The position numbers and the translations under genes are program-made. A model generated the notes under the pieces. The model searched no databases. It was not told the origin of the DNA and saw only the letters and a program-made list of their open reading frames with translations. From NCBI GenBank assembly GCA_026224825.1, contig JAMFRO010000018.1, forward strand, positions 1 to 64,000: a stretch of 64,000 nucleotides of DNA. Reading direction: 5' to 3'. This DNA comes from a bacterium. Lineage in GTDB: Bacteria; Pseudomonadota; Alphaproteobacteria; Acetobacterales; Acetobacteraceae. Positions 43,508 through 64,000 of the stretch are shown piece after piece. Position 1 is the stretch's first letter; every line of letters starts with the position of its first letter.

Positions 43508-45136
43508 ATGCCTGTTTCGCCGACCTATCCTGGCATCTACATCCAGGAAGCACCAAGCTCGTCCCATACGATCGTTGCGGCACAAACCAATATCGCCGTG
43601 TTGATCGGCTATTCACATCCATTCAAGACGGCGGCCGCCAATCTTGGTAAGGCTGTGCAGATATTCAGCTTCCAGGATTATCAGCGCCAGTTCGGCGGCT
43701 TCGTGCGCTCCACCGCCTTCGCCAACCAGGCGAATTACCAGGCCGACCCCAGCCATAATGCCGGCGATCTGGCCGTGGCGGTGAATCAGTTCTTCCTCAA
43801 TGGCGGCGCGACCGCCTATGTCGTGGCCGTGGCGAGCCCGCTCTGGCCCACGAGCCCGGCAACGCTGACCCTCTCCGGCATCAGCTTCGCCGCACTCGAG
43901 GTGACGGATGATCTGTACACGATGACGGTCAGCATCAAGCCGCTTTTCGCCAGCCCCAGCTCACCGCCCATCGACAGTCCGGCCGACATCGTCATCACCT
44001 ACGGGCCGAGCAACGGCACTGGCGGCACGGTGGTGGAAACCTACCGGCAGGTGACGCTGGACCCGGCTTTGCCGAGCTATATCCTCACCCAGCTCGCCAA
44101 ATCGGCGCTGGTGAGCGTCAGCCTGTCCTCGCCGCCGCCGGGCAGCCTCGCCGCCGCCGCCGGCACCATGCCGGCCTGGTGGCCGGCGGCGGCGGATTTC
44201 TTCTCCGCCTCCGACTTCACCGCCGTACTGCAGGCCGATACCAGCCTGGACAAGGTGCCGCTCGTCAATCTCATGGTCATTCCGGGTGTCACCAACACGC
44301 TGGTGGTGAGCACGGCGATTGCATTCTGCGAGCGCAACTTCTGCTTCTACATTCTCGACCCGGTGATTACCGATTCCGCCGACGGCACACTGCCCGCTTA
44401 TACAAACCTCGTGCAAAATACGCCGCTGCTGGGAGACAGCAGCAAGAATGTGGGGCTTTATTTCCCCTATCTGCTCTCCCCGGACCCGATCGCCGGCAAC
44501 GCCAACAACCCGGTGACGCTGAGCTGGTCCGATTTCACTTTGCCGAGCCCCAATGAGATTCCACCCTCCGGCACGGTGGCGGGTATTTTCGCGGCAACGG
44601 ACGTCTCCCGCGGGGTGTGGAAGGCGCCGGCCGGGTTCCAGGCCGGCGCCAATAATGTCACCGGCGTGGTGGAGCGCGGGCAGATGACGGATGCGCGCCA
44701 GGGCACGCTCAACCCGCTCAGCATCAACTGCCTGCGCAATTTCGCCAATACCGGCACCATTGTTTTTGGCGCCCGCACGCTGGCGGCGCAGACCGACCAG
44801 CAATGGACCTATGTGCCGGTGCGGCGTATGGCGTTGTTCCTGGAGCAGACGTTCAAGGCCAACCTCAAATGGGTGATCTTCGAGCCCAATGCGGAGCCGC
44901 TCTGGAGCGCCATCACGCTCAGTATCTCCGCCTTCCTGCTCGGCCTGTTCAAGCAGGGCGCGTTTGCCGGCACCACGCCAAGCGATGCCTTCCTGGTGCA
45001 ATGCGGCAGCCAGACCACGACGCCGGCGGATATCGATTCCGGTATCGTCAACATCGTCGTCGGGTTCGCGCCGTTGGAGCCCGCGGAATTCGTCATCGTC
45101 ACCATCGCCCAGCTCACCGGCCAGAGCAGCAGCTAA
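43508..45136 (+). CDS. eCIS contractile sheath protein
   Basis: 542 residues. N-terminal signature of phage/eCIS sheaths (PTYPGIYIQEAPSSSHTIVAAQTNIAVLIGYSHPF), central variable domain, and the conserved C-terminal core (RGVWKAPAGFQ, LNPLSINCLRNFANTGTIVFGARTLA, WTYVPVRRMALFLEQTFKANLKWVIFEPN, GIVNIVVGFAPLEPAEFVIVTIAQL). It forms the contractile outer tube that drives the inner tube into a target. Only one sheath gene is present, against three in Afp/PVC, so the sheath is presumably a homopolymer. First gene of the eCIS operon. Confidence 0.93.
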   Translation: MPVSPTYPGIYIQEAPSSSHTIVAAQTNIAVLIGYSHPFKTAAANLGKAVQIFSFQDYQRQFGGFVRSTAFANQANYQADPSHNAGDLAVAVNQFFLNGGATAYVVAVASPLWPTSPATLTLSGISFAALEVTDDLYTMTVSIKPLFASPSSPPIDSPADIVITYGPSNGTGGTVVETYRQVTLDPALPSYILTQLAKSALVSVSLSSPPPGSLAAAAGTMPAWWPAAADFFSASDFTAVLQADTSLDKVPLVNLMVIPGVTNTLVVSTAIAFCERNFCFYILDPVITDSADGTLPAYTNLVQNTPLLGDSSKNVGLYFPYLLSPDPIAGNANNPVTLSWSDFTLPSPNEIPPSGTVAGIFAATDVSRGVWKAPAGFQAGANNVTGVVERGQMTDARQGTLNPLSINCLRNFANTGTIVFGARTLAAQTDQQWTYVPVRRMALFLEQTFKANLKWVIFEPNAEPLWSAITLSISAFLLGLFKQGAFAGTTPSDAFLVQCGSQTTTPADIDSGIVNIVVGFAPLEPAEFVIVTIAQLTGQSSS

Positions 45137-45158
45137 ACGCCAGTAAGGAGGCTTTCCC

Positions 45159-45665
45159 GTGCCGATCTTCAACGTCAACCCGACACGCTACGACCCTTAC
45201 AAATCCTATCGTTTCCTCGTCTATTTCGGAACCAGCACAACACCCGTCGCCGCCGTGAGCAAGGTGACCGCGCTGAAGCGCTCCTCCGATGTCATCGATT
45301 ATAAGGAAGGCGGCAATGCCATCATCCTGAAAGGGCTCGGGCGGACCAAATATGACCCGATCACGCTGGAGCGCGGCGTAACCCAGGATAATGATTTCCT
45401 GAACTGGGCGAATGCGGCGCAGGTGCTGGATAATGGGCATCCCACCAACTCGCTCGCGAATCTTCGCCAGGAGATCAGGCTGCAGTTGCTGAACGAGGAA
45501 GGCCAGGCGGTGCGCGGCTATATCATCCATCGTTGCTGGGTCTCGGAACTCCAGGCCCTGCCGGATCTCGATGCCGGGGCAAATGCGATCGCGCTTGAGC
45601 ATATCAAGCTCGAGAACGAGGGCTGGGAGGTCGACCCGTCCATCGTTGAAGTGAAGGAAACCTGA
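45159..45665 (+). CDS. eCIS inner tube protein
   Basis: 168 residues with GTG start at 45159 and AAGGAGG upstream. Matches T4 gp19-like tube proteins: NPTRYDPYKSYRFLVYFG, VSKVTALKRSSDVIDYKEGGNA, GRTKYDPITLERGVTQDNDFLNWAN, and HRCWVSELQALPDLDAGANAIALEHIKLENEGWE. It stacks as hexameric rings to form the inner needle into which cargo is loaded. Only one tube gene was found, following the sheath directly. Confidence 0.93.
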   Translation: MPIFNVNPTRYDPYKSYRFLVYFGTSTTPVAAVSKVTALKRSSDVIDYKEGGNAIILKGLGRTKYDPITLERGVTQDNDFLNWANAAQVLDNGHPTNSLANLRQEIRLQLLNEEGQAVRGYIIHRCWVSELQALPDLDAGANAIALEHIKLENEGWEVDPSIVEVKET

Positions 45666-45667
45666 AA

Positions 45668-46486
45668 ATGTCCGGGGTCGTAACGGCCCTGGCGCGGTGT
45701 TTTGCGCTGCCGGTGAGCGGCATCACCGTTACATTGGCCGCGCTGACCGGGGCGGAGGATATTCTGTTGGCTGAGGGCAACGCGGCTGATCCGGGGCTGG
45801 CGCTGGCATTGGCCCGGCGCGTGGGGCACCTGCCGCCGGCCACCGACTGGACGGCGTTGACCGTGACGGATGTGGATCATTTCCTGCTGCGGCTGCGCGC
45901 CTCCCTGCTCGGCGGCGGCATCAGCGCCAACCAGAACTGCCGGGCCCCGGTGTGTGGCAAGCGGGTGGAATTTTCGTTCCGTATTGCTGATTATCTGGCG
46001 CATCACGCGCCCCAGCCACCGCGCGGGCGCGGCTGGGCGGCGGTAGCGGCAGCAGAGCCGGGCTGGTACCGGCTGGAAGCGGCGGGGGAGACGCAGGCGC
46101 GGTTCCGGCTGCCCAACCTTGGTGACCAGATCGAGGCGTATGGCCGGCGCGATGGTATGGCCTGGCTGGAAGAGATATGCATTGCGCCCGCAAACCTGCC
46201 CCGGCAGGTGCGGCTGCGGGCGCATGCGGCCATGGAATGCCTGGCCCCGCCGCTTTCCAGCACACTCGCGGGCGATTGCCCGGATTGCGGGGCACGGCTC
46301 GAAGCGCAGTTCGAGGCACGGCAATTCTGCCTGACCGAGCTGCAGGACCGGGCCCGCTACATCTATGACGATGTTGATGTCATCGCGGAACGGTACCATT
46401 GGGATGAGGAGATGATCCTGGCGCTGCCCCGTGCCAGGCGGATGCAATATGCCGAGCGCGCCCGCCAGACCGCGAGGGCCACATGA
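45668..46486 (+). CDS. T4-type baseplate hub assembly chaperone-like, Zn-ribbon
   Basis: 272 residues. The N-terminal part resembles T4 gp26/gp51-like hub chaperones (GITVTLAALTGAEDILLAEG, TDVDHFLLRLRASLLG). Four cysteines in two pairs (NCRAPVCGK near 94 and CPDCGARLEAQF near 203), plus a later FC, suggest a zinc ribbon. The C terminus YIYDDVDVIAERYHWDEEMILALPRARRMQYAERAR is the signature seen in eCIS and phage gene clusters at this position. Probably needed to assemble the hub, not a structural part. It starts 2 bases after the tube gene and overlaps the next gene. Confidence 0.75.
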   Translation: MSGVVTALARCFALPVSGITVTLAALTGAEDILLAEGNAADPGLALALARRVGHLPPATDWTALTVTDVDHFLLRLRASLLGGGISANQNCRAPVCGKRVEFSFRIADYLAHHAPQPPRGRGWAAVAAAEPGWYRLEAAGETQARFRLPNLGDQIEAYGRRDGMAWLEEICIAPANLPRQVRLRAHAAMECLAPPLSSTLAGDCPDCGARLEAQFEARQFCLTELQDRARYIYDDVDVIAERYHWDEEMILALPRARRMQYAERARQTARAT

Positions 46487-47412
46487 AGCGGCAGAGCGGC
46501 TATTTCGGGAGGCTCCTGCCAGGGCCACGGGTGGGCGCGCTGTTGGTACCGCCGCCGGTATTGTTCCGGCCAACGCTGGCGCAGGTGGAGTTCTCGGTGA
46601 TGGACGCGCAGGCCCCGGCACAGGCCGCGCCGCGCCGCGCCGTCGCCCCGGTGCCGGCCCCAGTGCCACAAAGCGTGGCGCCGGCACTTCGGGCGGCGCC
46701 CCTCTCGCCATCGCCCCCCTCGCCATCGTCCACCACGTCCTCGTCCACCGCGCCGTTACCCGCCGCATCGTGGCCCGCAGCGGCGCGGCAGGCGCCACCG
46801 CAACCCGTACCTGTCCCCGCAGCACTGGCGGCCGTAGTGCCAGCACGGGCAGAGGCCCAGCGGGGCGCCGGGACGCCACCGGCACAGCCGGGCATGACAC
46901 CGCCGCCAGCACAAGCACCGCTGCTTCCGCAAACGCCAACGGCGCGGCCCGTGCCGCAGGCCTCACAAGTGGTGGCACCCGTGCCGGCAGGGCAGACAGT
47001 GCCGCCGGCCACCCCACCGCCCTATGCGGTCATGGCGGCGCTGTTGCGGGCAGAGCTGACGCCCCCGCCCATCCTCGCGAGAGCACCGGCGCTACCGCAA
47101 GCCATGCTACCGCAAGCCATGCCGGCGCCTGTGCCGCCCTTGCCCGCGCCATCGCCGGGCCCGGCACTGCCGGCAGCCCCTTTGCTGCTCATGCCGGCGC
47201 CAGCACCGCCCCCGCCGCACAGCCTGGCAGCACCGCGCGCGGCCCCGGCACCGCAACTGCATATCGGCACGCTGGAGGTACGGGTGCTGCCACCAACCCC
47301 CGCGCCGCAACCTGTGCCTTCCATGCGCCCTCGGCTCGCGGCACGGGCCCAGGCGCCGGCCGGCGGCACCATCGCGCGTCATTTCGGCGTGTTCGGTCTG
47401 GGGCAGAGCTGA
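46483..47412 (+). CDS. Pro/Ala-rich disordered eCIS protein
   Basis: 309 residues. Short structured ends (KRQSGYFGRLLPGPR, PPPVLFRPTLAQVEF; LHIGTLEVRVLPP near 260) enclose about 200 residues made mostly of Pro, Ala, Gln and Val, predicted to be disordered. It overlaps the hub chaperone gene by four bases and lies four bases before the next gene, so it is a real member of the operon. The plus-strand alternative frame 46431-47504 is a shadow. No enzymatic function expected; possibly a flexible scaffold or cap-binding linker. Confidence 0.65.
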   Translation: MKRQSGYFGRLLPGPRVGALLVPPPVLFRPTLAQVEFSVMDAQAPAQAAPRRAVAPVPAPVPQSVAPALRAAPLSPSPPSPSSTTSSSTAPLPAASWPAAARQAPPQPVPVPAALAAVVPARAEAQRGAGTPPAQPGMTPPPAQAPLLPQTPTARPVPQASQVVAPVPAGQTVPPATPPPYAVMAALLRAELTPPPILARAPALPQAMLPQAMPAPVPPLPAPSPGPALPAAPLLLMPAPAPPPPHSLAAPRAAPAPQLHIGTLEVRVLPPTPAPQPVPSMRPRLAARAQAPAGGTIARHFGVFGLGQS

Positions 47413-47415
47413 GCC

Positions 47416-47661
47416 ATGGGGGAAGAGGCGCAAAAACTGAAAATCGACCGGCTGACGCTGAACCTGCCGGGGCTTTCGCCGGCGGCGGCCAGGCAGGTGG
47501 GTGAGCTGGTGGCGGCCGGGCTGGCGGCGGCGGGCACATTGCCGCAGAGCGGCGATATCCCGCGGCTCACGGTCACGCTGGAAGTCCGGGACGAAGCGCC
47601 CGCGGGGCTGGCGCAACGCATCGTCGCGGAAACGCTGCGCGCCCTGCGGAGGGAGGGGTAA
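47416..47661 (+). CDS. Small conserved-position eCIS protein
   Basis: 81 residues (KLKIDRLTLNLPGLSPAAARQVGELVAAGL, then RLTVTLEVRDEAPAGLAQRIVAETLRAL). The alternation of an amphipathic helix and beta strand looks folded. The KIDRLTLNLPGLS start is like small proteins seen next to baseplate hub genes in contractile injection clusters. Its stop is directly followed by the ATG of the next gene. Role unknown. Confidence 0.6.
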   Translation: MGEEAQKLKIDRLTLNLPGLSPAAARQVGELVAAGLAAAGTLPQSGDIPRLTVTLEVRDEAPAGLAQRIVAETLRALRREG

Positions 47662-48402
47662 ATGGTCGGCGCGGTGTTGAAAGGCGCACTGATCTCCTTC
47701 ATGCCCTCTCCGGGGCTGGGCCTGCCATCGCTGCCCAATGTCACCATTTTCCAGATCAACCCGGAAACCATCACCCATGCCTGGACGGAGGCGACCGCGC
47801 CGCAGCCGCCATCTGATTCGAAAGTGAAATACTCGCCGCTCGCCGTAGCGGGTGTGCCGGGTGAGAGCTTTTCCTTCACGCTGATGCTGGATTCGGACGA
47901 GCAGCAGGCGGATGTGGGAACCGACCCGATCGGCGCCGGGCTGGCGCTGATCAGCGGTGTGTATACGCGCCTGGCGGCGCTGGAATTGCTGCAATTCCCC
48001 GCCAACCCGCCTTCATCCTCGCTGGTGGGCGGGGTCTCCGCCGCCGCCTCCGCCGCCGGGGCCGGGCAGAGCGCCTCGGATTCACAGGGCACGCAGGTGC
48101 CTATAGGCGAGGTGCCGGTGGTGCTGTTCGTATGGGGCCCGCTCAGGATCGTGCCGGTGCGGGTGACGGCGCTGTCGGTGACGGAGAAATTATTCGATGC
48201 GCTGCTGAACCCGACGCATGTCGAGGCGCAGATCACGCTGACGGTGCTTACCCCGGATGAGCTGGCGGCGATCCAGAGCCCGATGGCCGGCATCGCCAAC
48301 ACTGCCTACAGCTACACGCAAGGGCTGCGCGCGGCACAGGCGCTGGCCAATCTGGGCGAATCGGCAGCCAGCATCCTCGGCATGATTCCAGCGGCCTTGT
48401 GA
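47662..48402 (+). CDS. Contractile injection system tube-initiator (Afp7-like)
   Basis: 246 residues. Opens with FMPSPGLGLPSLPNVTIFQINPETITHAW, the CIS tube/LysM-associated signature, then FSFTLMLDSDEQQADVG, GEVPVVLFVWGPLRIVPVRVTALSVTEKLFDALLNPTHVEAQITLTVLTPDEL. These proteins sit between hub and tube and nucleate tube assembly. Residues 120-145 form a Ser/Ala/Gly-rich loop. The ATG follows the preceding TAA without a gap. Its LysM-like partner is encoded separately just downstream. Confidence 0.85.
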   Translation: MVGAVLKGALISFMPSPGLGLPSLPNVTIFQINPETITHAWTEATAPQPPSDSKVKYSPLAVAGVPGESFSFTLMLDSDEQQADVGTDPIGAGLALISGVYTRLAALELLQFPANPPSSSLVGGVSAAASAAGAGQSASDSQGTQVPIGEVPVVLFVWGPLRIVPVRVTALSVTEKLFDALLNPTHVEAQITLTVLTPDELAAIQSPMAGIANTAYSYTQGLRAAQALANLGESAASILGMIPAAL

Positions 48403-48417
48403 CAGGAGGGAAACAAA

Positions 48418-48702
48418 ATGTTTTTTCCAGGCAGTCGTTACGCGAACCAGTTGCCCTACAGCTTCACGCTGGCGAACGGCACAATGGTGCAGGCGGTCAT
48501 GCCGCCCACGCCGGGTGTCGCCGCCGTGCTCGGCTATTACCGGCGCCAGACCGGCAACCGGCTCGACCAGATCGCCGGGCGGTTTCTCGGCGATGCAACA
48601 AAATTCTGGCATGTCTGCGACGCCAACAACGCGGTGGTGCCCGATGCGCTGGCGGCGCGCGACCTGGTCGGGATTCCTCTGGACGCGGTCGCGACCGGCT
48701 GA
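48418..48702 (+). CDS. LysM-like baseplate protein
   Basis: 94 residues behind an AGGAGGG ribosome binding site. The middle (GYYRRQTGNRLDQIAGRFLGDATKFWHVCDANN) has the LysM look (YRxxxGDxLxxIAxxxxGDxxxWxxIxxxN), and PDALAARDLVGIPLDA closes it. In many phage and eCIS clusters the LysM module is fused to or next to the tube-initiator; here it is a separate polypeptide. It may clamp the baseplate or tube start rather than bind peptidoglycan. Overlaps the next gene by TGATG. Confidence 0.8.
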   Translation: MFFPGSRYANQLPYSFTLANGTMVQAVMPPTPGVAAVLGYYRRQTGNRLDQIAGRFLGDATKFWHVCDANNAVVPDALAARDLVGIPLDAVATG

Positions 48703-49910
48703 TGGGCAGCAATTACGCCCTGCAGTTCAACGGCCAGCCGGCGGATGACACGCTGAAAGGCCTGCTCGCCTCCATCGAGGTGGAGGAGAGCATGGACATG
48801 CCGTCGGCCATCGAACTCAAAGTGCCGGTATCGCGTTCCTCGGGCGGAGATCTGACCTATATCGCGGACCCTCGTTTCGCGCCGATGGCGACACTCTCGG
48901 TGGTGGCACAGGCCGGCGGCAGCGGGGCGAGCGGCGTTGCCACCGGGGCGGCCGGGGCGGTGTCCGCCGCCATGGGCAGCCCGGCCGCACCGCCCGCCGC
49001 GCAATGCATTTTCGACGGCTATGTCCTGCAGCAGAAAATCCATCTCGAAACCGGCACGACCAATTCGGTGCTCACGTTATGGGGCCAGGATGCGAGCTGG
49101 CTGATGAACCAGGCGGAAAAAGTGCGGGAATGGGTGGATGTGACGGATTCCGACGTCGCCGCCTCGATTTTCGGCGAATATGGCATCACGCCCTCGGACC
49201 AGAACAGCAGCGATGACTCGCCCGCCCATACCGAGGACACGCACAGCCTGATGCAGCGCGGTTCGGACATCGCCTTCCTGCGCCTGCTGGCCCGGCGCGG
49301 CGGCAAGACCTGCCGCATCGCCTGCGCCGATGCGCCTGGCAACCGCACCGGCTTTTTCGCCATTCCGCAGCTCACCGGCGATCCGGTGCTCAACCTCGCC
49401 CTCAACGATCCCGACCATTGGACGATCAACAGCATCGACCTGGAATGGGATGCGACCAGGCCGACCAGTGTCAGCGCCAGCAGCGCCTTGTTCAGCGATC
49501 CCTCGCAGCAGGGGGCGACGGGAGACAGCTCCGATTCCGGGCTGCCGCTGCTTGATGCGCAGAATCTCGCCAGTTTCACCGGGCAGACGATGACGGTGCT
49601 GCTGGCCGCCATCGTGGATAGCGGCGGCGAGCTGACGCAGCGCGCCCAGGCGGTGCTGCGCGAGACCGGGTGGTTTCTGCGCTGTGCCGGAGAGGCGGAT
49701 GCGGAACGGCTGGGCATGGTGCTGCGGCCGGGCATGCTGGTGAATCTGGCGGGCATCGGTGCGGTGCATTCCGGCAGTTGGATCGTGTGGACGGTGCGCC
49801 ATAAGATCACCGAAGAAAAGCATTCCATGCGCTTCACGCTGCTGCGCAACGCCGCCGGCAGCCCGCCGCCGGCCAGCGGCGGGCTCTCCAGCCTGGTGGG
49901 GGCGCTATGA
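48702..49910 (+). CDS. Baseplate hub protein, phage late control D / gp27-like
   Basis: 402 residues from ATG 48702, which overlaps the previous stop. Hub-domain features: YALQFNGQPADDTLKGLLASIEVEESMDMPSAIELKVPV, FDGYVLQQKIHLETGTTNSVLTLWGQDASWLMNQAEK, SDIAFLRLLARRGGKTCRIAC, LGMVLRPGMLVNLAGIGAVHSGSWIVWTVRHKI. Forms the trimeric ring that links tube to spike. A Gly/Ala-rich loop at 70-105 interrupts the first domain. Together with the next gene it corresponds to the single Afp8/VgrG polypeptide, here split in two. Confidence 0.88.
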   Translation: MGSNYALQFNGQPADDTLKGLLASIEVEESMDMPSAIELKVPVSRSSGGDLTYIADPRFAPMATLSVVAQAGGSGASGVATGAAGAVSAAMGSPAAPPAAQCIFDGYVLQQKIHLETGTTNSVLTLWGQDASWLMNQAEKVREWVDVTDSDVAASIFGEYGITPSDQNSSDDSPAHTEDTHSLMQRGSDIAFLRLLARRGGKTCRIACADAPGNRTGFFAIPQLTGDPVLNLALNDPDHWTINSIDLEWDATRPTSVSASSALFSDPSQQGATGDSSDSGLPLLDAQNLASFTGQTMTVLLAAIVDSGGELTQRAQAVLRETGWFLRCAGEADAERLGMVLRPGMLVNLAGIGAVHSGSWIVWTVRHKITEEKHSMRFTLLRNAAGSPPPASGGLSSLVGAL

Positions 49911-50449
49911 CGGACAAAGCGCATCAGCAGCATCATGGCGTGGATGAGCGCGCGCTGGCGGATATTCTGGAGCGCATGCGCAACCGGTTTTTCGGCAAAT
50001 ACCGTGGCGTGGTGGTGGATGTGGATGCCGGCACCATGCGGGTGAAGGCAAGCGTGCCGGCGGTGCTGGGCCCGCAGGTGAGCGGCTGGGCGCGGGCCTG
50101 CGTGCCCTTCGCCGGCCCGCAGGCCGGGTTTGCCTTCCTGCCGGATGTAGGCGCCGGGGTGTGGATCGAATTCGAAGGCGGGGATGTGTCCCTGCCCGTC
50201 TGGGTGGGCGGCTACTGGCATGACGGGGAGACGCCGAGCGACGCCAGCGCGAGCGTCTACGTGATCGTGACGAAAGCCGGCCAGAAACTGATGCTCGACA
50301 CCGGGGGTGGCACCATCACCCTCGAGGATGCGAACGGCAACTCGCTCACCATGGATTCGAGCGGCATCACGCTGAGCAGTTCAGGCCAGACCGTAGCGCT
50401 CGGTTCATCCGGCATTAATCTCAACAACGGCGCGCTGCAGGTGACATGA
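49907..50449 (+). CDS. Baseplate spike protein gpV-like
   Basis: 180 residues. OB-fold domain (FFGKYRGVVVDVDAGTMRVKASVPAVLG, GFAFLPDVGAGVWIEFEGGDVSLPVWVGGYW) followed by a beta-helical needle of short repeats (GGTITLEDANGNSLTMDSSGITLSSSGQTVALGSSGINLNNG). Trimerises to form the membrane-piercing spike. Four-base overlaps with both neighbours (ATGA). Short needle compared with VgrG proteins. Confidence 0.9.
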   Translation: MTDKAHQQHHGVDERALADILERMRNRFFGKYRGVVVDVDAGTMRVKASVPAVLGPQVSGWARACVPFAGPQAGFAFLPDVGAGVWIEFEGGDVSLPVWVGGYWHDGETPSDASASVYVIVTKAGQKLMLDTGGGTITLEDANGNSLTMDSSGITLSSSGQTVALGSSGINLNNGALQVT

Positions 50450-50775
50450 TGTCGGGATTCCTCACCCCCTCCTCCGTGATGATGTGCCCGCATGGCGGCA
50501 TGGTGCAGGCCGCCTCCTCCAACACGCAGGTCACTGTGCAGGGCCAGCCGATCCTGCGCAGCACGGATACATTCATAATCGCCGGCTGCGCCTTCGTGAT
50601 CGGCATCGTTCCCAGCCCCTGCGTCACCGTAATATGGATGCAGCCAGCCGCGCGCAGCGTCATTGCGGCCCCCACGCTGACGCTCGCCAGCCTCGGCCTG
50701 TGCCAGGCGGCGACAGGCGCGATGCAGGGCCCGGTGGTCATCGCCTCCACCCAGCCGAACGTCACGGGGCAATGA
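50446..50775 (+). CDS. PAAR-like spike-tip protein
   Basis: 109 residues. Starts SGFLTPSSVMMCPHGGMVQAASSNTQVTVQGQPILRSTDTFIIAGCAF, a PAAR-like cone with candidate metal ligands in CPHGG and GCAF, then VIWMQPAARSVIAAPTLTLASLGLC. It would cap the gpV trimer and sharpen the tip. There is no C-terminal toxin extension, so it is structural. A start at either of two adjacent ATGs (50446, 50449) is possible; the first overlaps the gpV stop. Confidence 0.8.
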   Translation: MMSGFLTPSSVMMCPHGGMVQAASSNTQVTVQGQPILRSTDTFIIAGCAFVIGIVPSPCVTVIWMQPAARSVIAAPTLTLASLGLCQAATGAMQGPVVIASTQPNVTGQ

Positions 50776-50776
50776 C

Positions 50777-51154
50777 ATGAGCCGCACGGATTATGCATTT
50801 CCGTTCCGTATCGACAAAGCCTCCAACCAGGGCGCGCAATCGCCTTACGCCCAGCATGTGGACGAGATGATCCGGCAGGTGCTGCTGACGGCGCCGGGCG
50901 AACGGGCGGATCTGCCGGAATTCGGCTGCGGGCTGCGCCAGTTGCTGTTCGCCCCCAATTCAGACGCGTTGCAGGCCACGGCGCAGTTGATGGTGCAGCG
51001 GAGCCTGAACCTGTGGCTCGGCAGCCAGATCAACCTGCAGCAGGTGAGCGTGACACCCGGTCCGGGCGGCGATTATTCGCAGATTCTCGTACAGATTTCC
51101 TACATCCTCATCGAAACCCAGTCGTCGCAGACGACACAATTGGTGGTGAGCTGA
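50777..51154 (+). CDS. gp25-like baseplate wedge protein
   Basis: 125 residues with the GPW/gp25 fold: SPYAQHVDEMIRQVLLTAPGERADLPEFGCGLRQLLFAPNSDAL, containing the EFG motif that nucleates sheath polymerisation, and a beta-sheet C terminus (ILVQISYILIETQSSQTTQLVV). It connects the baseplate with the first sheath ring. One base separates it from the PAAR-like stop. Confidence 0.92.
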   Translation: MSRTDYAFPFRIDKASNQGAQSPYAQHVDEMIRQVLLTAPGERADLPEFGCGLRQLLFAPNSDALQATAQLMVQRSLNLWLGSQINLQQVSVTPGPGGDYSQILVQISYILIETQSSQTTQLVVS

Positions 51155-51155
51155 C

Positions 51156-56209: not shown

Positions 56210-58725
56210 GCGGCACGGCACTGGACAATTACGACATTTATTACGCGGACAAGCTGTGGAGCCTGCTGCCGGCGGTATACCGCGCGCTCGATACCGACCA
56301 GTTCGACAGCAACGGCCCTCTGCGCGAGTTGGTGAACCGCATCGGCGCCACGGCGGGTACGTTGCGGCGGAGCATCGACAGGCTGTGGGAGGACCAGTCC
56401 ATCGAGAGCTGCGATGACTGGGTGATCCCTTATATCGCGCAATTGCTGGATACGAATCTGGTCTATGGGCTGGATGCGCGCGGGCAGCGGCTGGATGTGG
56501 CCAACACCATCGACTACCGGCGGCGCAAGGGTACGCTCGGCGTGCTGGAACAGATCGCGTCCGACATCACCGGCTGGGACGCCAAGGCGGTAGAGTTCTT
56601 TCGCCGCCTCGGCCGCACGCGGCACCTGCTGGATCCTGCAGTCGGGCCTGCCAGCGGGGCAAGCACGAGCCTGGCGCAATTGCAGCAGGCCGAAGGGCTG
56701 GTGGGGCGGTACAGCGGCACGAAAATCGGCGGCTTCGCGGATCTGCGCAATGTCCATGCCGCCGGGCTCAGCGGCACGGGCTTCGATGAGTTCTACCACA
56801 CCGCCGACCTGCGTGCCCCGCTCGGCAGCACCGGCTGGTACGCCATCCCCCATCTCGGCGCGTTCGTCTGGCGGCTCAATGCCTATCCGGTCGGGCCGGT
56901 GACGCCGGTGGCGGTGAAAAATTGCCCGGGCTGGTATTGTTTCGACCCGACCGGGCGGGACATCCCCCTCTTCGCGCCACGGCGCGGCAGCAACCAGTTC
57001 GGCGCCGCCTGGGTCTCACCCGTGGAGGGCCAGATGCCGGGGCCGATCAGCCAGAGCCTGCTCGCGGCCGACCTCGCCGCCGGGGCCAATGGGCTCGGCC
57101 TCTATCCCAACGCTGTCGCGGTGTTCGAGGAACTCAGCGCCGCGCCGCCCCTGTTGGAGGCGCTGCCGGTAAGCGTGCTGCTGGGCCCCACGCCGGCACT
57201 CCTGCTCAGGCCCGCATACGGCAAATTCCGCTACAGCGGTTCGCCGCCCGCCGCACCGCTGGTCGGGCAATATGTGTATGGTTTCCCGTCGGACATCGGC
57301 GCCGGCTCCTACGACCGGCGGGGCCAGGCCATCACCGTGCCCACGCCGGCGCCACGCCAGGCTTTGCAGGGCGGCGGCGCCCTGGGCCCGCTGCCGGCCA
57401 CCGGCACAATGGTGCTGAATGACTGCCTGACCTATGGCGGGGTGCAGGATGTGTCGGTGGCCGCCCTCACCCTGCAAGGCGGCTTCTCGGCGCAGACCGG
57501 CCTGTCCGCGCGGCCGTTGCTGCAATTAACCCCCGGCCAGATATGGCACATCACCGGGCTGTCACCGGATGCCACGCTCAATCTCGACGGTCTGTTCATC
57601 TCCGGCGGCGAGATCGTGCTGCAAGGCCAGTTTTCCACCGTCACCATCACCTGCTGCACGCTGGACCCCGGCACCGCCAGTGCCGGCCCGCTGCTGCCCG
57701 CTGCCTCACCCCCGGCGCCCATATTCACCGAAAATGCCGCCGGCCAGCCGTTGGCGCCGGTGCTGCTGCGCATCGAGGCCGAGATCGAGAGTTTATGCGT
57801 CGACCGCAGCGTGCTGGGGCCGATACGCACCAGCGGCACGGGCGAGGTGGCAACGGCTGGGCTCAGCAACAGCATCATCCAGGCCATCCGCACCTCCCAA
57901 CCCGGCCTGCTGCAAATAGACCAGGTGAAGGACATGCCGCGCCTCGTGCGGCAGTTGCAGCTCGGGCTGGATCCGGTCTCCGCCGCGCTGCGGCAGTTGA
58001 GCCCGGCGCTGGCGGGCATATTGGGCGGGCTGGCGAGCCCGCCGCTGAGCACACCCGTTCTGCCCGCCGCCGATGACCCGCAAATTCTCGCCGCGCTGAA
58101 CGCGCTGATCGCGGGGCCGCCGCTACCGGCCTCGATCTTTGCCGGCGTGGCGCTGTCCGTGGCCACGCAGGACGCATTGGCGGCGAGCTTCCCCTTTGAG
58201 GCGGCACCGGCGCTCAACCGCCTGCTGCTGGAGGATGCCTGCCCGCTGGAGCTGGCCGATGCCGCGCTCGCGTTTGGCGATGGCAGCCTCATCCTCTCGC
58301 GCTGCACCGTGCTGGGGCGGCTCGTGGCGCACCGGTTGCAGGCGAGCGAATGCATCCTGCACGAGTTGACCACGGTGGATGACACCCAGGATGGCTGTAT
58401 CCGCTTCACCGCCTTCGGCCGTGGCAGCGTGCTGCCGCGCCAGTATGAGAGCGTCACCATCCCGCAGCAGGCGCCGCTTTTCACCAGCACCAGCTTCGGC
58501 GCTCCCGCCTATGGCCAATTGCGCGCGGATGCCGACAAGCAGATCCTGCCGCAGACCAGCCCCAGCACGGTGCCGCAGAACATCATCTCGGCCGGCGCTG
58601 AGGACGGCGCGGAAATGGGTGCCTATGCGCGCGACAAGAACCCGATCCGCGCCCAGGCCCTTCTGCTCAAATACCAGGAATACATGCCCGCCGGCCTCGT
58701 GCCGGTCATCATCAACGTCACGTAA
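56206..58725 (+). CDS. Tail protein I-like baseplate protein with C-terminal extension
   Basis: 839 residues. Residues 1-160 are phage tail protein I-like (WSLLPAVYRALDTDQFDSNGPLRELVNRIGATAGTLRRSIDRLWEDQSIESCDDWVIPYIAQLLDTNLVYG, then RRKGTLGVLEQIASDITGWDAKAVEFF). The remaining ~680 residues are beta-rich with parallel beta-helix-like segments (LNLDGLFISGGEIVLQGQFSTVTITCCTLDPG, LEDACPLELADAALAFGDGSLILSRCTVLGRLVAHRLQASECILHELTTVDDTQDGCIRF). The product probably forms the wedge periphery and carries fibre attachment or outer decorations. Overlaps the previous stop by ATGA. Confidence 0.82.
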   Translation: MSGTALDNYDIYYADKLWSLLPAVYRALDTDQFDSNGPLRELVNRIGATAGTLRRSIDRLWEDQSIESCDDWVIPYIAQLLDTNLVYGLDARGQRLDVANTIDYRRRKGTLGVLEQIASDITGWDAKAVEFFRRLGRTRHLLDPAVGPASGASTSLAQLQQAEGLVGRYSGTKIGGFADLRNVHAAGLSGTGFDEFYHTADLRAPLGSTGWYAIPHLGAFVWRLNAYPVGPVTPVAVKNCPGWYCFDPTGRDIPLFAPRRGSNQFGAAWVSPVEGQMPGPISQSLLAADLAAGANGLGLYPNAVAVFEELSAAPPLLEALPVSVLLGPTPALLLRPAYGKFRYSGSPPAAPLVGQYVYGFPSDIGAGSYDRRGQAITVPTPAPRQALQGGGALGPLPATGTMVLNDCLTYGGVQDVSVAALTLQGGFSAQTGLSARPLLQLTPGQIWHITGLSPDATLNLDGLFISGGEIVLQGQFSTVTITCCTLDPGTASAGPLLPAASPPAPIFTENAAGQPLAPVLLRIEAEIESLCVDRSVLGPIRTSGTGEVATAGLSNSIIQAIRTSQPGLLQIDQVKDMPRLVRQLQLGLDPVSAALRQLSPALAGILGGLASPPLSTPVLPAADDPQILAALNALIAGPPLPASIFAGVALSVATQDALAASFPFEAAPALNRLLLEDACPLELADAALAFGDGSLILSRCTVLGRLVAHRLQASECILHELTTVDDTQDGCIRFTAFGRGSVLPRQYESVTIPQQAPLFTSTSFGAPAYGQLRADADKQILPQTSPSTVPQNIISAGAEDGAEMGAYARDKNPIRAQALLLKYQEYMPAGLVPVIINVT

Positions 58726-58743
58726 CGGCCAGGAAACACGCAC

Positions 58744-61700
58744 ATGCCAGCCGACCGCAGCCGCCGCATCGATACACCCGCCAACGGCTATATTCTCCCC
58801 ATCGCGCAGCAGGGGCGCGTGGTGCTGGACCGCGATTTCAACGCCTGGGGCAGTTTTCTGGGCGCACGCATCGATGCCGATGCACTGGACATCGTGGGGC
58901 CCTGCGGCACACCGGATAACGGCTTTGCCATCTCCGCGCCCAGCACCTCGCCGCCAGGCGCGTTCTGGAGCCCGCCGCAGCCGGAAAGCCCACCCGCCGG
59001 CGAAGGCACGGGCTGGGATTTCCTGATCTCCGGCGGCACCATGTATGTCGGCGGATTGCGCGTGCACTGGCCGGCGGTGCAGTCCGGCCAGACCATCACC
59101 TACAGCGCCGCCGACCAGCCGGAGCTGGTACCGCCTGTGACCGGGCTGATCGATTTCATCTTCAGGCGCCCGACCCAGGAGCTGGTCTACCTGAGTGTCA
59201 CGCTGCAGGAGGTGAGCGCGGCGGAAGATCCCGACCTGCTGGATGTGGCGCTCGGCGGGCCGGACACCACGCAAAGGCTGAAGCAGCGCGTGCGGGTGGA
59301 ACGGCTCGGCGTGGATGCCACCGCCTGCGCGGATGCCTGGTCGCAGGCCATCACCGCCTGGAGCGGGCAGGGGCTCGATTTCGACCCCGTGACGATGCGG
59401 CTGGTGCCGGCGGTGAAACTGCAGGTCGGCTTCACCCAGGACGGCCCCTCCGGCGGCCCCTGCGACCCGGTGGCGGCCGGTGGCTTCCTGGGGCCGGACA
59501 ACCAGTCCATCCGCGTGCAGGTGGCGCAGGACACGCTGCTGTGGAGCTACGACAATGCCAGCTTCCTCTACCGCATCCAGGTGGCGTCCGACCGCCAGAC
59601 CATCACGCTGATCGGCGGCCCGCCGGATGTGCAGCATTACCCGCAAACCGGGCAGGTCGTGGAAATCCTCACCACCAGCGCGGTGATCGACAGCGTGCCG
59701 GATGAAATCAATGGCGGCAGCATCGTGCGCGCGGCGGCGCAGCCCACGGGCACGCTGTTCACCCTCACCAAGCCTTACGGCCCGGCGACGCAAGGTGCCG
59801 CCACCAACGTGCTGGTGCTGCCGGCACCGTTAGACCCAGCTTTGCTGGCCAGCGGTCTGCCGCTGTTCCTGCGCGTCTGGCAGGCGCAACTGCCGCTGTC
59901 CTTCAACACGCCGATTACCGTGCAGGACGCCAACAACAATTCCACCGGCCTTACCGTGACCCTGTCCGGTGCCACGGCGGCGGCGGACGGCGCTTTCTGG
60001 CAGATCGCGGCCCGGCCCGCGACGCCGCAGGGTGTTTACCCTGAGGAGCTGCTGCTGGCGCCGCAGCCGGCGGATGGGCCGGTGCAGGCGGTCTGCCCGC
60101 TGGCGGTGATCGACTGGACGGCGGCGAACGGCCCGGCCATCGCCGATTGCCGCACACAGTTCGACAATCTGGCGGTGCTGACGGCGCGCCAGCCCGGCTG
60201 CTGCACGATCGGCGTGTCGCCCGCCGATCTCGGGCCGCAGCGTAGCCTGCAGGACATCATCGATACCGCCGTGCTGCGGGCGAGAGGGGTGACCATCTGC
60301 CTCACCGCCGGCACCTACAAGTTGGCGGCGCCGCTGCAACTCACCCGGCTGCATAGCGGGCTGACCCTGGAATGTTGTGCCGGCGCGGCGGTGTTTATAC
60401 CCTCGGCCAGCGCCGCTGCCAGCGCCTTTAGCGAAGGCCTGATCACCCTCAACGGCGCCGCGCGGGTGACGTTGCGCGGGCTCATATTACAGCCGCCGCT
60501 GGTGCCGGTGAGTCAGGATCTGCTGGCCGAGCTTACCGGCAATCTCAGCGCCGCCGCCCAGGCTGACGCCACAACGCTGCTGCGCTCCCCCAGCCTCAGC
60601 ATCGGCATCCATGCCAGCAACGCCACGGCGCTGAAACTGCAGAATTGCGGCGTGGAATTTTTCCATGGCCTGACGGAGCAGATTATCGATCTGGTGGCGG
60701 CGGGGCTGCTGCTGCGCGGCGATTGCACGGGGCTGCTGGTGGAGACATGCGCCTTCGGTTCGTCCTTCACCCCGACCTATAACCCCCTCAGCACGGCCAG
60801 CAGCTTTACCGACTATGTCGCCGCTGATCGTCAGGACTTCGCCGCAACGGCCACGCCGGCAAGTACCGGCACGGTCAGTTCCGCCGCCACGCTGGCGGCG
60901 GAGACGTCCCTCGTAACAGACCACAACATCACCCTGGCGGTGGACCAGGCACCCAGCATCGCCAGCGGCCCGACTCTGGTACCGCCGCATATCACGCTGG
61001 GCGCAGCGGCAACGCCTGCCTCCACGCTTGAGGTGGCGCATGACACGCTGAATCTGGGCGGCACTTCGGCCCTCGCGGCGCATGAGGTCGAGGCCGCGCC
61101 GACTCTGGCTGAGACAGCAACGACCCTGCATGAACAGCCGCAACAGCAGCCGCAGTCCGATGCCGGCGCCAATGCCGCTGGCAGCATCACCGTCAGCACC
61201 TCGCTGGCTGCCCAGGCCACGACTCAATCCGCCGGCACATTATCGCTCTCCAGCGACTTGTTGCTCGACACGGCGTATCAGCTCTACGCCGGCACCGGGC
61301 TGGCACAGATTCTGGCCAGCCGCAGCGGCGCCAGCGCGCTCACCCTGCGGCGGCCGATGGTGGCCAGTTGCGGCATCGTGGCGGCAACCTGGCAGCCGGC
61401 GCCGCAGCAGGGCAGCGCGCTGACCGAGAATGCCTTCCGCGCCAGCCTCATCGAATGCACGCTGGATGGCGCGGTGATCCGCGACAATGATTTCACCAGC
61501 CTCACCTTCGCCACGCTGCTCAGCACCAATGCCCAGGCTTTGCGCCTGCAGGACAATAACGCGACCGGCGGCGTGGCCGGTTTCTGGGTGACCCTGCCGG
61601 AAATGGGGTCGGCCTACGGCGCCGCCGAGGGTACGAATATCTATTCCGTCAGCGTGTTCAATTTCGAGGAATACCAGGCGCTGTCGGGCTTCCTGCCGCT

Positions 61701-62304
61701 GCTGCCACTGCCGCCGGCACTCGTGTTGCAAGTATTGGACAGGGCCACGGATGATACCCTTGCCGCGAACCAGGCCAGCACGGCAGAGACACGCGCCGCC
61801 ACCGGCGTGAATTTCAGCATCTTCGTCACCGGCAACCATGCCACCACCGGCCAGCGCAGCGCTGTGATCCCGGATGCGAATGCGACAACGAACGTGAACG
61901 CGAATGCGGCAGCCAACACCACACCCACCGGCACCAGCGCGCTGCTGCTCTGGCTGATCCCGGACATCGTGGCGGATGCGCTCGAAAACAGTGATATTTC
62001 CGCCATCGTCGCCAATAATCATTTCATTTCCGCGACACCGGATACGCCGACGGCACTGCTGGCGCTGGCCAATCTGCAGGCAGGCGCCGTCAACGGCAAC
62101 ATCATCCTCAACCAGCCGGGGCCGATCGAGGCCGACCTCTCCGCCCCCAGCCTGTGGGTGGTGATCTCCGAATCGCTGCAATCCACCGAGCCCTTCGCCG
62201 CCAGCGGCAATGTGCTGCGCGGCCTGTCGGACCTCAACCTGCTGGGGCGCGGCACGGCGGCGCAGCGGGCCGGCTGGTCCGGCTATAATGCGGACCCGTT
62301 CTGA
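58744..62304 (+). CDS. DUF6519 beta-helix eCIS protein
   Basis: 1186 residues. The start RIDTPANGYILPIAQQGRVVLDRDFNAWGSFLGARIDADALDIVGPCGTPDNGFAIS is the recognised DUF6519 region. Jelly-roll-like middle (to about 470) follows, then a right-handed beta-helix (LQDIIDTAVLRARGVTICLTAGTYKLAAPLQLTRLHSGLTLECC; LKLQNCGVEFFHGLTEQIIDLVAAGLLLRGDCTGLLVETCAFG). Residues ~696-840 are a Thr/Ala/Ser-rich insert without helix-like rungs, after which the beta-helix resumes (ASLIECTLDGAVIRDNDFTSL). It may be a baseplate-surface or target-recognition component. Enzymatic residues not recognised. Confidence 0.8.
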   Translation: MPADRSRRIDTPANGYILPIAQQGRVVLDRDFNAWGSFLGARIDADALDIVGPCGTPDNGFAISAPSTSPPGAFWSPPQPESPPAGEGTGWDFLISGGTMYVGGLRVHWPAVQSGQTITYSAADQPELVPPVTGLIDFIFRRPTQELVYLSVTLQEVSAAEDPDLLDVALGGPDTTQRLKQRVRVERLGVDATACADAWSQAITAWSGQGLDFDPVTMRLVPAVKLQVGFTQDGPSGGPCDPVAAGGFLGPDNQSIRVQVAQDTLLWSYDNASFLYRIQVASDRQTITLIGGPPDVQHYPQTGQVVEILTTSAVIDSVPDEINGGSIVRAAAQPTGTLFTLTKPYGPATQGAATNVLVLPAPLDPALLASGLPLFLRVWQAQLPLSFNTPITVQDANNNSTGLTVTLSGATAAADGAFWQIAARPATPQGVYPEELLLAPQPADGPVQAVCPLAVIDWTAANGPAIADCRTQFDNLAVLTARQPGCCTIGVSPADLGPQRSLQDIIDTAVLRARGVTICLTAGTYKLAAPLQLTRLHSGLTLECCAGAAVFIPSASAAASAFSEGLITLNGAARVTLRGLILQPPLVPVSQDLLAELTGNLSAAAQADATTLLRSPSLSIGIHASNATALKLQNCGVEFFHGLTEQIIDLVAAGLLLRGDCTGLLVETCAFGSSFTPTYNPLSTASSFTDYVAADRQDFAATATPASTGTVSSAATLAAETSLVTDHNITLAVDQAPSIASGPTLVPPHITLGAAATPASTLEVAHDTLNLGGTSALAAHEVEAAPTLAETATTLHEQPQQQPQSDAGANAAGSITVSTSLAAQATTQSAGTLSLSSDLLLDTAYQLYAGTGLAQILASRSGASALTLRRPMVASCGIVAATWQPAPQQGSALTENAFRASLIECTLDGAVIRDNDFTSLTFATLLSTNAQALRLQDNNATGGVAGFWVTLPEMGSAYGAAEGTNIYSVSVFNFEEYQALSGFLPLLPLPPALVLQVLDRATDDTLAANQASTAETRAATGVNFSIFVTGNHATTGQRSAVIPDANATTNVNANAAANTTPTGTSALLLWLIPDIVADALENSDISAIVANNHFISATPDTPTALLALANLQAGAVNGNIILNQPGPIEADLSAPSLWVVISESLQSTEPFAASGNVLRGLSDLNLLGRGTAAQRAGWSGYNADPF

Positions 62305-62307
62305 GCC

Positions 62308-63489
62308 ATGAGCAACGCACTCGCCATCGCCGCGGTGACCGAGAGCATCGTCAGCCTGGTGACGGAGGGGCTCGATGCCTCGCTCGTCACCGGGGCGCAG
62401 GTCACGGCGCTGCCGCCGGACGGGAGCGGGCTGCCCACGCCGGGCGTGAACATCTTTCTCTACCAGGTGTCGCCCAACAAAGCCTATCGCAATGCCGATC
62501 TGCCGACCCGGGATGCGCAGGGTAATCTGTTGCGCAAGCCGATGGCCGCGCTCGACCTATATTACCTGTTCACCTTCTACGGTGATGCCACCGCGCGCGA
62601 GCAGGAGCGGCTGCTGGGCGCCGTGGCGCTGACACTGCAGGCCAACCCCACCCTGCCGCGCAGCCTGATCCAAAGCATCCAGTCCTCGACCTCCTTCCTC
62701 AACACCTCCACACTAGATACGCAATCGGAACTCATCCGCTTCACGCCGATCGTGTTCTCTCTGGAGGAATTATCGAAACTCTGGTCGTTTCTCCTCAAAA
62801 TCGATTATGTCCTCTCCACCGCCTATGTCGCGAGCGTGGTGCTGATTGAAACGAACGACATTGTGCCCGGCCCGGCCTTGCCCGTGCTCAGCTATAATTT
62901 CACCGCCCAGCCCATCGCGGCGCCAGTGATCACAGCGGTGGCCGCGACACCGGATGCCACAAAGCCGATCCTGGCCGGCAGCAGCATCGCCATTTCCGGT
63001 ACCAATCTGGCAGCGCCGAGCGGCAGCGTGACGCAGTTGCTGCTGAACGGCAGCGCCGTGACGGCGAATGTCGTGTCCGCGCAGGAGATCACCCTGGCCC
63101 TGCCGGCTACGCTGGCGGCGGGGGCGCAGACCGTGCAGGTAACGCAGCCGCTGCTGCTGGGCGCCCCGCCCGTGGCACATCCCGGCACCGGCCCCTCCTC
63201 CGCGCCCTTCGCCTTCACCCTGCTGCCGCAGGTGAGTGCCGCGAGCCCGGTGGCTGGGCCGGCGGTTTCCGTCACGCTGAACCCGCCGGCCCAGCAGGGC
63301 CAGCGTGTCATCCTGCTGCTGACGGCGCAGGCCGCCCCGCATGGCGTACTGCTGTTCGATGGCGGCACGCAGAGCGCCACGGTGGCCAGCCTATCCATCG
63401 CCACGCCCGGCCTCGCCGCCGGCAGCTACGGCGTGCAGGTGCTGGTGGATGGCGCGGAGAGCCTGTCCGGGCCGGTGGTGACGCTGTGA
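62308..63489 (+). CDS. DUF4255-containing tube/sheath terminator (Afp16-like)
   Basis: 393 residues. The N-terminal ~190 residues are DUF4255-like (AIAAVTESIVSLVTEGLDASLVTGAQVTALPPDGSG, GVNIFLYQVSPNKAYRNADLPTRDAQGNLLRKPMAALDLYYLFTFYGD, RFTPIVFSLEELSKLWSFLLKIDYVLSTAYVASVVLIET). This family caps the distal end of tube and sheath. It is followed by two IPT/TIG-like Ig domains (KPILAGSSIAISGTNLAAPSGSVTQLLLNGSAV; RVILLLTAQAAPHGVLLFDGG), which most terminators lack and which may expose a surface. Start 62308, three bases after the previous stop. Confidence 0.88.
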   Translation: MSNALAIAAVTESIVSLVTEGLDASLVTGAQVTALPPDGSGLPTPGVNIFLYQVSPNKAYRNADLPTRDAQGNLLRKPMAALDLYYLFTFYGDATAREQERLLGAVALTLQANPTLPRSLIQSIQSSTSFLNTSTLDTQSELIRFTPIVFSLEELSKLWSFLLKIDYVLSTAYVASVVLIETNDIVPGPALPVLSYNFTAQPIAAPVITAVAATPDATKPILAGSSIAISGTNLAAPSGSVTQLLLNGSAVTANVVSAQEITLALPATLAAGAQTVQVTQPLLLGAPPVAHPGTGPSSAPFAFTLLPQVSAASPVAGPAVSVTLNPPAQQGQRVILLLTAQAAPHGVLLFDGGTQSATVASLSIATPGLAAGSYGVQVLVDGAESLSGPVVTL

Positions 63490-64000
63490 GCGGCCGGCGC
63501 GAATGGCAGGACCGCAACCAGGAGGCCATGAGCGCCGCCCTCACCCGGCTGAAAGCACTGCTGCGCGGTGAGGCACCGCCGCCCCTCCCGGATATGGCGG
63601 AGAGCGCGCTGGCACATCTTGTGGAGGCATTCGGCCTCTCGTCTTTCGAGCGCGACATATTGGTGCTGTGCGCCGGCATGGAGCTGGATGGCGACGTGCC
63701 GGATCTGTGCGCCAGGGCGCGGGGCGACACCGCCAAAGGCGGCCCCAATTTCGCTTTGGCCTTCGCTCTGCTGCCGGAGCCGCATTGGTCGGCACTGGTG
63801 CCGGAGGCGCCGCTCAGGGCCTGGCGGCTGGTGGAGCTGGAAACCGGCCCGCTGCTCACCAGGGCACGGCTGCGCATCGACGAGCGCGTGCTGCATTTCC
63901 TCACCGGGCTGCAGCAGATGGACGACCGCCTGGCCATGCTCCTGGAAAAACTGCCCATGCCGGAGGCGCTGCCGCCGTCGCTTGCGCAATTGGCGGAGCA
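63486..64000 (+). CDS. eCIS AAA+ ATPase, N-terminal part (cut by window end)
   Basis: Open from GTG 63486, overlapping the DUF4255 stop (GTGA), to the end of the window with no stop; 171 residues visible. MSGRREWQDRNQEAMSAAL begins it, followed by LAHLVEAFGLSSFERDILVLCAGMELDGDVPDLCARAR and LALAFALLPEPHWSALVPEAPLRAWRLVEL, the N-terminal winged-helix-like domain of Afp15-type AAA+ proteins. The Walker motifs lie outside the window. Afp15-like ATPases are needed for eCIS assembly or cargo loading. Translational coupling to the terminator is clear. Confidence 0.82.
   Translation, partial: MSGRREWQDRNQEAMSAALTRLKALLRGEAPPPLPDMAESALAHLVEAFGLSSFERDILVLCAGMELDGDVPDLCARARGDTAKGGPNFALAFALLPEPHWSALVPEAPLRAWRLVELETGPLLTRARLRIDERVLHFLTGLQQMDDRLAMLLEKLPMPEALPPSLAQLAE

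Follow-up and report, generated by a model that had tools for sequence, protein, structure and literature searches.

The window analysed here, bases 1–64000 of a 218,536-base contig (GenBank JAMFRO010000018.1), belongs to a member of the Acetobacteraceae, in agreement with the alphaproteobacterial host proposed in an initial annotation, and carries from base 43508 onwards a gene cluster which, followed past base 64000 on the same contig, we interpret as a complete and probably co-transcribed contractile injection system (CIS) within a cross-phylum clade of extracellular contractile injection systems (eCIS). Taken together with the working proposed below, this interpretation has in our estimate a probability of about 0.75. 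The machine adds one more member to a known and widely shared CIS family and is not a new kind of machine, and what is apparently new resides in a subclade in which the ATPase comes last (branch support 98/98), in the presence of two CIS lineages in one genus and in a glycosyltransferase fusion behind the toxin.

The unit spans 43508–72609 and comprises 19 genes, all on the + strand, separated by intergenic gaps of −10 to +22 bases. In agreement with the roughly 17 genes expected for the window, 17 start within it, the last of which, encoding the ATPase, extends to 65399. Family searches were carried out with Pfam, NCBIfam and PHROGs, and further matches were sought against PDB. The sheath, the gp19 tube, the spike, gp25 and the J-type baseplate proteins all have Pfam or NCBIfam matches above cut-off; Pvc16 (DUF4255, PF14065) and an AAA+ ATPase (PF00004) are both matched at the locus, as is eCIS_core (DUF4157, PF13699, E=2.8e-31), which matches none of 14 control genomes. 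These family matches, running from the sheath to the AAA+ ATPase, bear out the initial assignment to the eCIS type. The accompanying claim that every core part is encoded holds at family level for most of them, the hub falling one bit short (29.1 bits against PF05954, cut-off 30.1, E 7e-7) and the PAAR-like tip having no family match. The assignments of the hub, PAAR, LysM, tail-I and T4-baseplate-like genes are less certain, being based partly on position and conservation. The G+C content is 66.6% in the CIS block, 60.1% in the first 30 kb and 53.9% just to the right of the block, and no tRNA or Rfam family was found in the window. The genes, with the E-values or bit scores of their matches, are as follows.

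43508–45136, +: sheath, single copy (PF04984, 4.1e-9; PF17482, 1.2e-6; best solved match 8bky)
45159–45665, +: inner tube, gp19-like (PF06841, 2.4e-31)
45668–46486, +: T4-baseplate-like protein with CxxC pairs (weak PF12322, 0.0014, under cut-off; conserved in relatives)
46483–47412, +: proline/alanine-rich protein, conserved mainly at its C-terminus (no family; tblastn matches of the last ~50 residues in L022 and G032)
47416–47661, +: conserved small protein, 81 residues (no family; similar ORFs in many relatives)
47662–48402, +: CIS_tube protein, 246 residues, putative N-terminal half of a split Afp7/Pvc7 (PF19266 in relatives; PDB profile)
48418–48702, +: LysM/tail-X-like protein, 94 residues, putative second half of Afp7/Pvc7 (Phage_tail_X, 0.12, under cut-off; position and conservation)
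48702–49910, +: hub, GPD-like half of VgrG (PF05954, 7.1e-7 with the longer ORF, just under cut-off)
49907–50449, +: spike, gpV/OB half of VgrG (PF04717, 2e-20)
50446–50775, +: PAAR-like tip, 109 residues (no family match; assigned from position and conservation)
50777–51154, +: gp25-like baseplate wedge (PF04965, 9e-14)
51156–53624, +: baseplate J-like wedge 1 (TIGR02243, 161.2 bits, cut-off 155.8)
53621–56209, +: baseplate J-like wedge 2 (TIGR02243, 161.6 bits)
56206–58725, +: tail protein I-like, with a long C-terminal part (TIGR02242, 0.0062 over residues 18–132, under cut-off; PHROG 9229, 0.0004)
58744–62304, +: tail fibre, eBAP5/DUF6519 type (PF20129, 1.7e-7, 30.6 bits, cut-off 22.4, residues 11–188)
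62308–63489, +: Pvc16/DUF4255 terminator with TIG domain (PF14065, 4.5e-39)
63486–65399, past the window from 64000, +: Pvc15-like AAA+ ATPase (WHD PF22977, then AAA PF00004, 3.4e-28)
65390–69166, wholly past the window, +: cargo, 1258 residues (PF13699, 2.8e-31; PHROG tape-measure families down to 2.3e-11)
69175–72609, wholly past the window, +: GT2-GT9-GT9-methyltransferase fusion (Pfam; co-occurrence with CIS)

The placement of the cluster among its relatives was investigated by a sheath-profile scan of 84,980 species genomes, which yielded 33 loci, a lower bound because the scan makes use of two short peptide patterns. By record title these loci are distributed over Pseudomonadota, Acidobacteriota, Planctomycetota, Cyanobacteriota, Chloroflexota, Actinomycetota and Bacillota. 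In a sheath tree of 39 rows, from which a near-duplicate (L059) and a short sequence (L060) were omitted, the window falls into a 25-row clade with support of 100/100, together with a second genome of the same genus (G032), Nitrosospira, Paraburkholderia, Rhodococcus, Mycobacterium, Bryobacteraceae, Richelia, Novosphingobium and a Streptomyces plasmid. A second tree of 29 rows (without two G048 rows, L023, L054–L058, a duplicate G028 row and the second L034 sheath; L103 is in neither tree) places the window, L029, L030, L022, L044, L031, L032 and L033 on one side of a branch supported at 98/98, and at 95/87 in the 39-row tree. Gene order could be coded in 25 of these 29 rows: in seven the ATPase follows the fibre (order A) and in 18 it lies between the T4-baseplate-like and the small genes (order B), a distribution for which a single change on the tree is enough. 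Two of the order A rows, L022 and L044, are so coded only because the early place holds no ATPase, their 3′ ends lying beyond the available sequence; L029 was coded from the other contig of its genome, and L030, in the same branch, is too short to code.

Within the genus, the sheath is matched at E<1e-100 in three of 37 genomes, namely those of the window, G032 and G028. The last of these has order B and groups with Novosphingobium, and a tree joining the window, G032 and G028 in one group is rejected (AU p=7e-5, a test made after the first tree had been seen), from which it follows that two CIS lineages have entered a single genus. The hub is matched at E≤0.001 in 15 of 200 sampled Acetobacteraceae genomes, and at 60% identity or above in four of these, the window included. 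A search of 38 genus genomes with a flank protein from each side of the cluster revealed no readable empty insertion site; in G014 both proteins are present at 75–76%, the right-hand one at the end of its contig, the left-hand one on a contig that continues without a match to the window. Our literature search found no paper pairing CIS with Acetobacteraceae, or CIS with Alphaproteobacteria plus Nitrosospira. Among the relatives themselves, the record of L031 (G179:C135, CAJCIS010000135.1) is titled 'Acidobacteria', which is probably wrong since the genome, G179, is placed in the family of the window, and an uncultured cyanobacterium of the 25-row clade carries two tandem sheath genes (L034:2333 and 4120).

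Analysis of the central baseplate evidences two functions that are each distributed over two genes. The profile PF19266 (CIS_tube) matches 18 of the 21 aligned relatives of the 246-residue protein, but not the copy in the window, and a PDB profile search with this protein yields 9rce (6.9e-6), Afp7 (0.35) and Pvc7 (0.84). As judged from the sequences, it would represent, with the LysM-like gene behind it, a split Afp7/Pvc7, in the same way as hub and spike would represent a split VgrG; a hub relative in NZ_CP109276.1 carries the annotation 'VgrG/Pvc8 family'. In a single-sequence PDB search the hub has one weak match (7aef, 0.006), and the CIS_tube protein, the fibre, tail protein I and the toxin domain have none. 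The start of the hub was set at 48702 and the ORF start at 48399 was rejected, the first 101 residues of that ORF being an out-of-frame reading across the LysM gene, and the 81-residue gene at 47416–47661 occupies an apparent gap in the gene row. The split hub and spike and the separate LysM gene had been taken as distinctive, a view we reject, as the arrangement is common to relatives: CIS_tube, LysM, hub and spike are four separate genes in 19 of the 33 sheath-linked loci (including Nitrosospira, Paraburkholderia, Rhodococcus, Mycobacterium and Gemmataceae), nine of the remaining loci end too early, and in the five from Bacillota neither CIS_tube nor LysM is matched. The two J paralogues likewise do not set the cluster apart from Afp and PVC, in which two J-like proteins are usual.

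Cargo and fibre genes had both been expected past base 64000. This proved correct for the cargo, found at 65390–69166 upon extending the sequence downstream, and incorrect for the fibre, which is the DUF6519 gene inside the window (58744–62304), as DUF6519 corresponds to a published fibre family, eBAP5 (PMC12923769). As in the eBAP5 fibres described there, the N-terminal DUF6519 domain is above cut-off; the C-terminal β-helix reported as frequent in that family is not detected by Pfam in the window fibre, whose residues 440–1186 have no Pfam match, the G032 copy giving Beta_helix at 0.015, under cut-off. Comparison of the two fibres in bins of 100 residues shows identities of 52–76% over residues 1–500, 43–49% over 501–700 and 14–41% over 701–1100, returning to 64% in the last 86 residues. 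The profile suggests a receptor-binding part under diversification. Relatives of the cargo, the fibre and tail protein I were not found in viral contigs.

In the cargo, the eCIS_core domain lies near the N-terminus (residues 85–161) and is followed by matches to several tape-measure families, the best being PHROG 1272 (2.3e-11 over residues 257–655; 1.3e-18 in the G032 copy). Residues 1–1065 are 74% identical to the G032 protein and the remainder has no significant alignment; since the similarity stops at this point, the C-terminus has been exchanged between the genus-mates and would be an exchangeable toxin tip. Sequences similar to it (65% over 40 residues) occur at places on three Cereibacter plasmids, and on pORIO4 of Cereibacter azotoformans (L094:2935–6744) a 1269-residue protein without eCIS_core carries this domain (E 3e-9 over domain residues 14–108), two genes after an ATP-binding gene matching the AAA protein of the window. 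The shared stretch carries the motif GH...GG...NL.PIT.SANA.HE, and the domain was found in none of the genomes of 99 other relatives. Regarding studied cargos, Tme of Streptomyces davawensis is reported to combine DUF4157, a tape-measure-like part and an EndA-like nuclease with demonstrated nuclease activity, and to co-elute with baseplate proteins (PMC11126660), and an association of eCIS_core with the baseplate is reported for Sle2 (PMC13277306). The genome of Streptomyces longispororuber contains two CIS clusters on different contigs (L103 and L052), in the first of which a 2123-residue cargo with eCIS_core and tape-measure-like parts lies behind the ATPase and just before the baseplate genes, as reported for Tme.

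Starting from the gene content, gene order, clade, cargo architecture, C-terminal exchange and fibre variability observed here, and by analogy with studied CIS relatives as regards assembly, loading and ejection, we propose the following working. Sheath and tube would assemble on a baseplate composed of gp25, the two J wedges, tail protein I, the split hub and spike and the split CIS_tube and LysM proteins, Pvc16 would cap the tube and the AAA+ ATPase would aid cargo loading. The eCIS_core domain would tie the cargo to the baseplate in the tube lumen, the long tape-measure-like helical part filling the tube, and the DUF6519 fibre would recognise the target, most likely another bacterium or a sibling. 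Upon contraction the cargo would be ejected in extended form, so that its exchangeable nuclease-like C-terminus reaches the target cell. The cargo may also set the tail length, because no other tape-measure gene is recognised in the cluster.

Some observations weigh against this proposal. The tape-measure match is not general, being present in three of the eight cargo proteins tested (the window, G032 and L103), out of about 25 available (24 eCIS_core proteins are listed, seven of them among the eight). The toxin domain has no solved-structure match in PDB, and its similarity to Endonuclea_NS_2 is under cut-off both in the window (E 0.09) and in the Cereibacter protein (0.016); as this is the sole family hint, the C-terminus is called nuclease-like and not nuclease. 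Finally, an antibacterial toxin would be expected to have an immunity gene directly behind it, and none is found there; an absence of immunity genes beside antibacterial CIS toxins is described as usual, and as a mystery (PMC8213781). The missing immunity gene would also suit an intracellular, lysis-type CIS as reported for Streptomyces, which fires in the producer under stress and kills or reprogrammes the cell itself or its siblings, the nuclease freeing DNA. Consistent with this possibility, the nearest solved sheath is 8bky (1.4e-69, profile residues 6–530), reported as that of the cytoplasmic CIS of S. coelicolor (PMC10066040), and the nearest studied cargo, Tme, is reported to act in the life cycle of its own producer (PMC11126660). 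Nevertheless, a gene of a fibre family is present in the cluster and the outer part of its product is highly variable, as expected of a binder of diverse surfaces, whereas the S. coelicolor and S. venezuelae clusters are described as having no conventional fibre gene (PMC10066040); we regard intracellular action as a serious but distinctly less probable explanation than the working proposed above.

The initial annotation had also concluded that the cluster is neither a prophage nor a type VI secretion system (T6SS), and our results agree with it. No head, terminase, portal or TssJLM family was found among 26 picked upstream ORFs (four of them without any family at the thresholds applied; smaller ORFs were not scanned) and seven ORFs behind the cluster (two without family), a scan which covers the neighbourhood and not the whole genome. 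A membrane-anchored, contact-fired T6SS, of subtype iv or other, would share with the present system its contractile nature and the AAA+ ATPase, and some CIS do operate inside the cell; against the lack of TssJ, TssL and TssM among the scanned neighbours and the presence of fibre and Pvc16, we consider it improbable. Even less probable is a defective or domesticated prophage tail, or a tailocin. Phage tails are regarded as the ancestors of all CIS, and a contig with a 58% identical sheath (L022) is filed as a virus in IMG/VR; this contig is nevertheless covered nearly throughout its 12.3 kb by CIS-gene matches, from base 602, and is probably a CIS fragment misfiled as viral. Moreover, the hub has no match in 50,697 phage records at E 0.001, no head genes occur among the scanned neighbours, and ATPase, Pvc16, eCIS_core and DUF6519 are described as eCIS markers (PMC8213781, PMC12923769). 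Both the prophage or tailocin and the T6SS readings were rejected on gene content, as far as the cluster and its scanned neighbourhood show.

Directly behind the cargo, a single ORF combines GT2, two GT9 and methyltransferase domains. Matches to its single domains occur in all 38 genus genomes, as expected of common families, but the whole fusion is present only in the window and G032 (65%), in the latter again directly after the cargo. In the 200-genome family sample, a match at E≤1e-100 occurs only in the window and G179 (2/200), both of which are among the four genomes with a close hub (chance 3e-4, uncorrected for kinship). Among the genomes searched, the fusion is thus found only in those bearing a CIS. 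Twelve flank proteins of the window have no match within 30 kb to the left or 25 kb to the right of the G032 block, save for a shared Hint domain: the fusion was retained beside the cluster in G032, while the sequence further out is different. The CIS contig of G179 stops inside the ATPase and another contig starts inside the glycosyltransferase, so that cargo and fusion may adjoin there too; on a further contig of the same genome (L098:8625–11730) an eCIS_core protein adjoins a 401-residue ORF with a weak match (5.6e-6) to the GT2 part of the fusion. Counting against a general role, G245 has an order A cluster with cargo and no fusion. Among the loci compared, Mycobacterium sp. OTB74 has a separate, divergently oriented GT2 (44% to the GT2 part of the fusion) ~1.5 kb before its CIS sheath, where two glycosyltransferase-like ORFs are located (L047:6340–8492), the second judged by eye. 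A 56.8-kb IMG/VR contig carries GT9 and GT9-methyltransferase in two adjoining ORFs (39–45% to the fusion), near ORFs which we take to resemble terminase genes. A limited literature search on CIS or eCIS with glycosyltransferase and on CIS with heptosyltransferase found no paper on such a fusion in a CIS cluster.

A bolder proposal, which we put forward as rather unlikely, is that the fusion is a working part of the CIS and that the cargo is its ruler too, toxin and tape measure being one exchangeable protein. The tail length would then follow from the helical part of the cargo, ~850 residues, and is estimated at about 127 nm if that part is fully helical. We may guess that the fusion glycosylates the particle, at the fibre or the sheath, in the manner of phages that decorate their virions, or else that it alters the surface glycan of the producer, which its own particles then could not bind; if true, self-masking by glycan would replace the missing immunity gene. 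The fusion could also be a plain neighbour of the cluster, as G245 has order A without it.

Regarding the flanks of the unit, a Sulfotransferase-TPR gene overlaps by four bases with that of a 2294-residue protein with autotransporter-type PATR repeats and a C-terminal Hint_2 domain (34029–42766), of which pair only the Hint domain has a match near the G032 cluster. A second Hint_2 protein, a Cellulase (GH5)-Hint_2 fusion, is found ~32 kb from the first (contig 75060–77192; L004:13060–15192). Further upstream (6806–14452), a PQQ-dependent dehydrogenase, a TonB receptor and PQQ biosynthesis-like genes (radical SAM-SPASM, TENA/PQQC, β-lactamase fold) fit the initial description of a PQQ-type bacterium.

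The cluster is thus more complete and more ordinary than at first reading, and what remains of interest is the exchange of the toxin tip, the acquisition of a CIS twice within one genus and the glycosyltransferase. The Acetobacteraceae are now seen to hold a full CIS, fibre and cargo included, and the window and G032, which share a conserved machine but differ in the toxin tip and in the outer part of the fibre, constitute a natural experiment on how cargo and target are determined. That the same genus also has a second CIS lineage, belonging to another branch, is good evidence that such clusters move between hosts, and the glycosyltransferase behind the toxin makes one answer to the missing immunity gene testable.

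In comparison with Afp and PVC (subtype Ia), the sheath, tube, baseplate, fibre, ATPase and Pvc16 are common to the window, and in those systems ATPase and Pvc16 lie near the 3′ end, before the toxins. In contrast to them, the window has a single sheath and a single tube gene, VgrG and Afp7 are both divided over two genes, no separate tape measure is recognised and the sheath profile matches Pvc2/Afp3 only over about the last third. Within the 25-row clade, the Streptomyces anthocyanicus plasmid (NZ_CP109276.1, L093) and Rhodococcus spelaei (L036) have the same genes from sheath to DUF6519 but in order B, with the ATPase between the T4-baseplate-like and small genes, and the giant 3′-end gene of the plasmid (2456 residues) gives eCIS_core at E 0.7 and no tape-measure family. 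Nitrosospira multiformis Nl18 (L032, L096) and Gemmataceae palsa_1347 (L033, L097) share the window's order A of fibre, Pvc16, ATPase and eCIS_core cargo, with cargo bodies that differ from that of the window and no glycosyltransferase fusion within 2.7 kb and 1.4 kb behind the cargo, respectively. The likeness to the S. davawensis CIS, whose sheath is outside our trees, is one of cargo architecture: DUF4157, a tape-measure-like part and a C-terminal nuclease or nuclease-like domain follow one another in both, and its clade is described as spanning Proteobacteria, Chloroflexota and Actinobacteria, with a single plasmid-borne cluster (PMC11126660). In respect to Tme, the window cargo is shorter (1258 against 2247 residues), its nuclease-like domain is weakly similar to the family of EndA, and it is encoded after the ATPase, towards the 3′ end, whereas Tme is encoded just upstream of the baseplate genes (PMC11126660).

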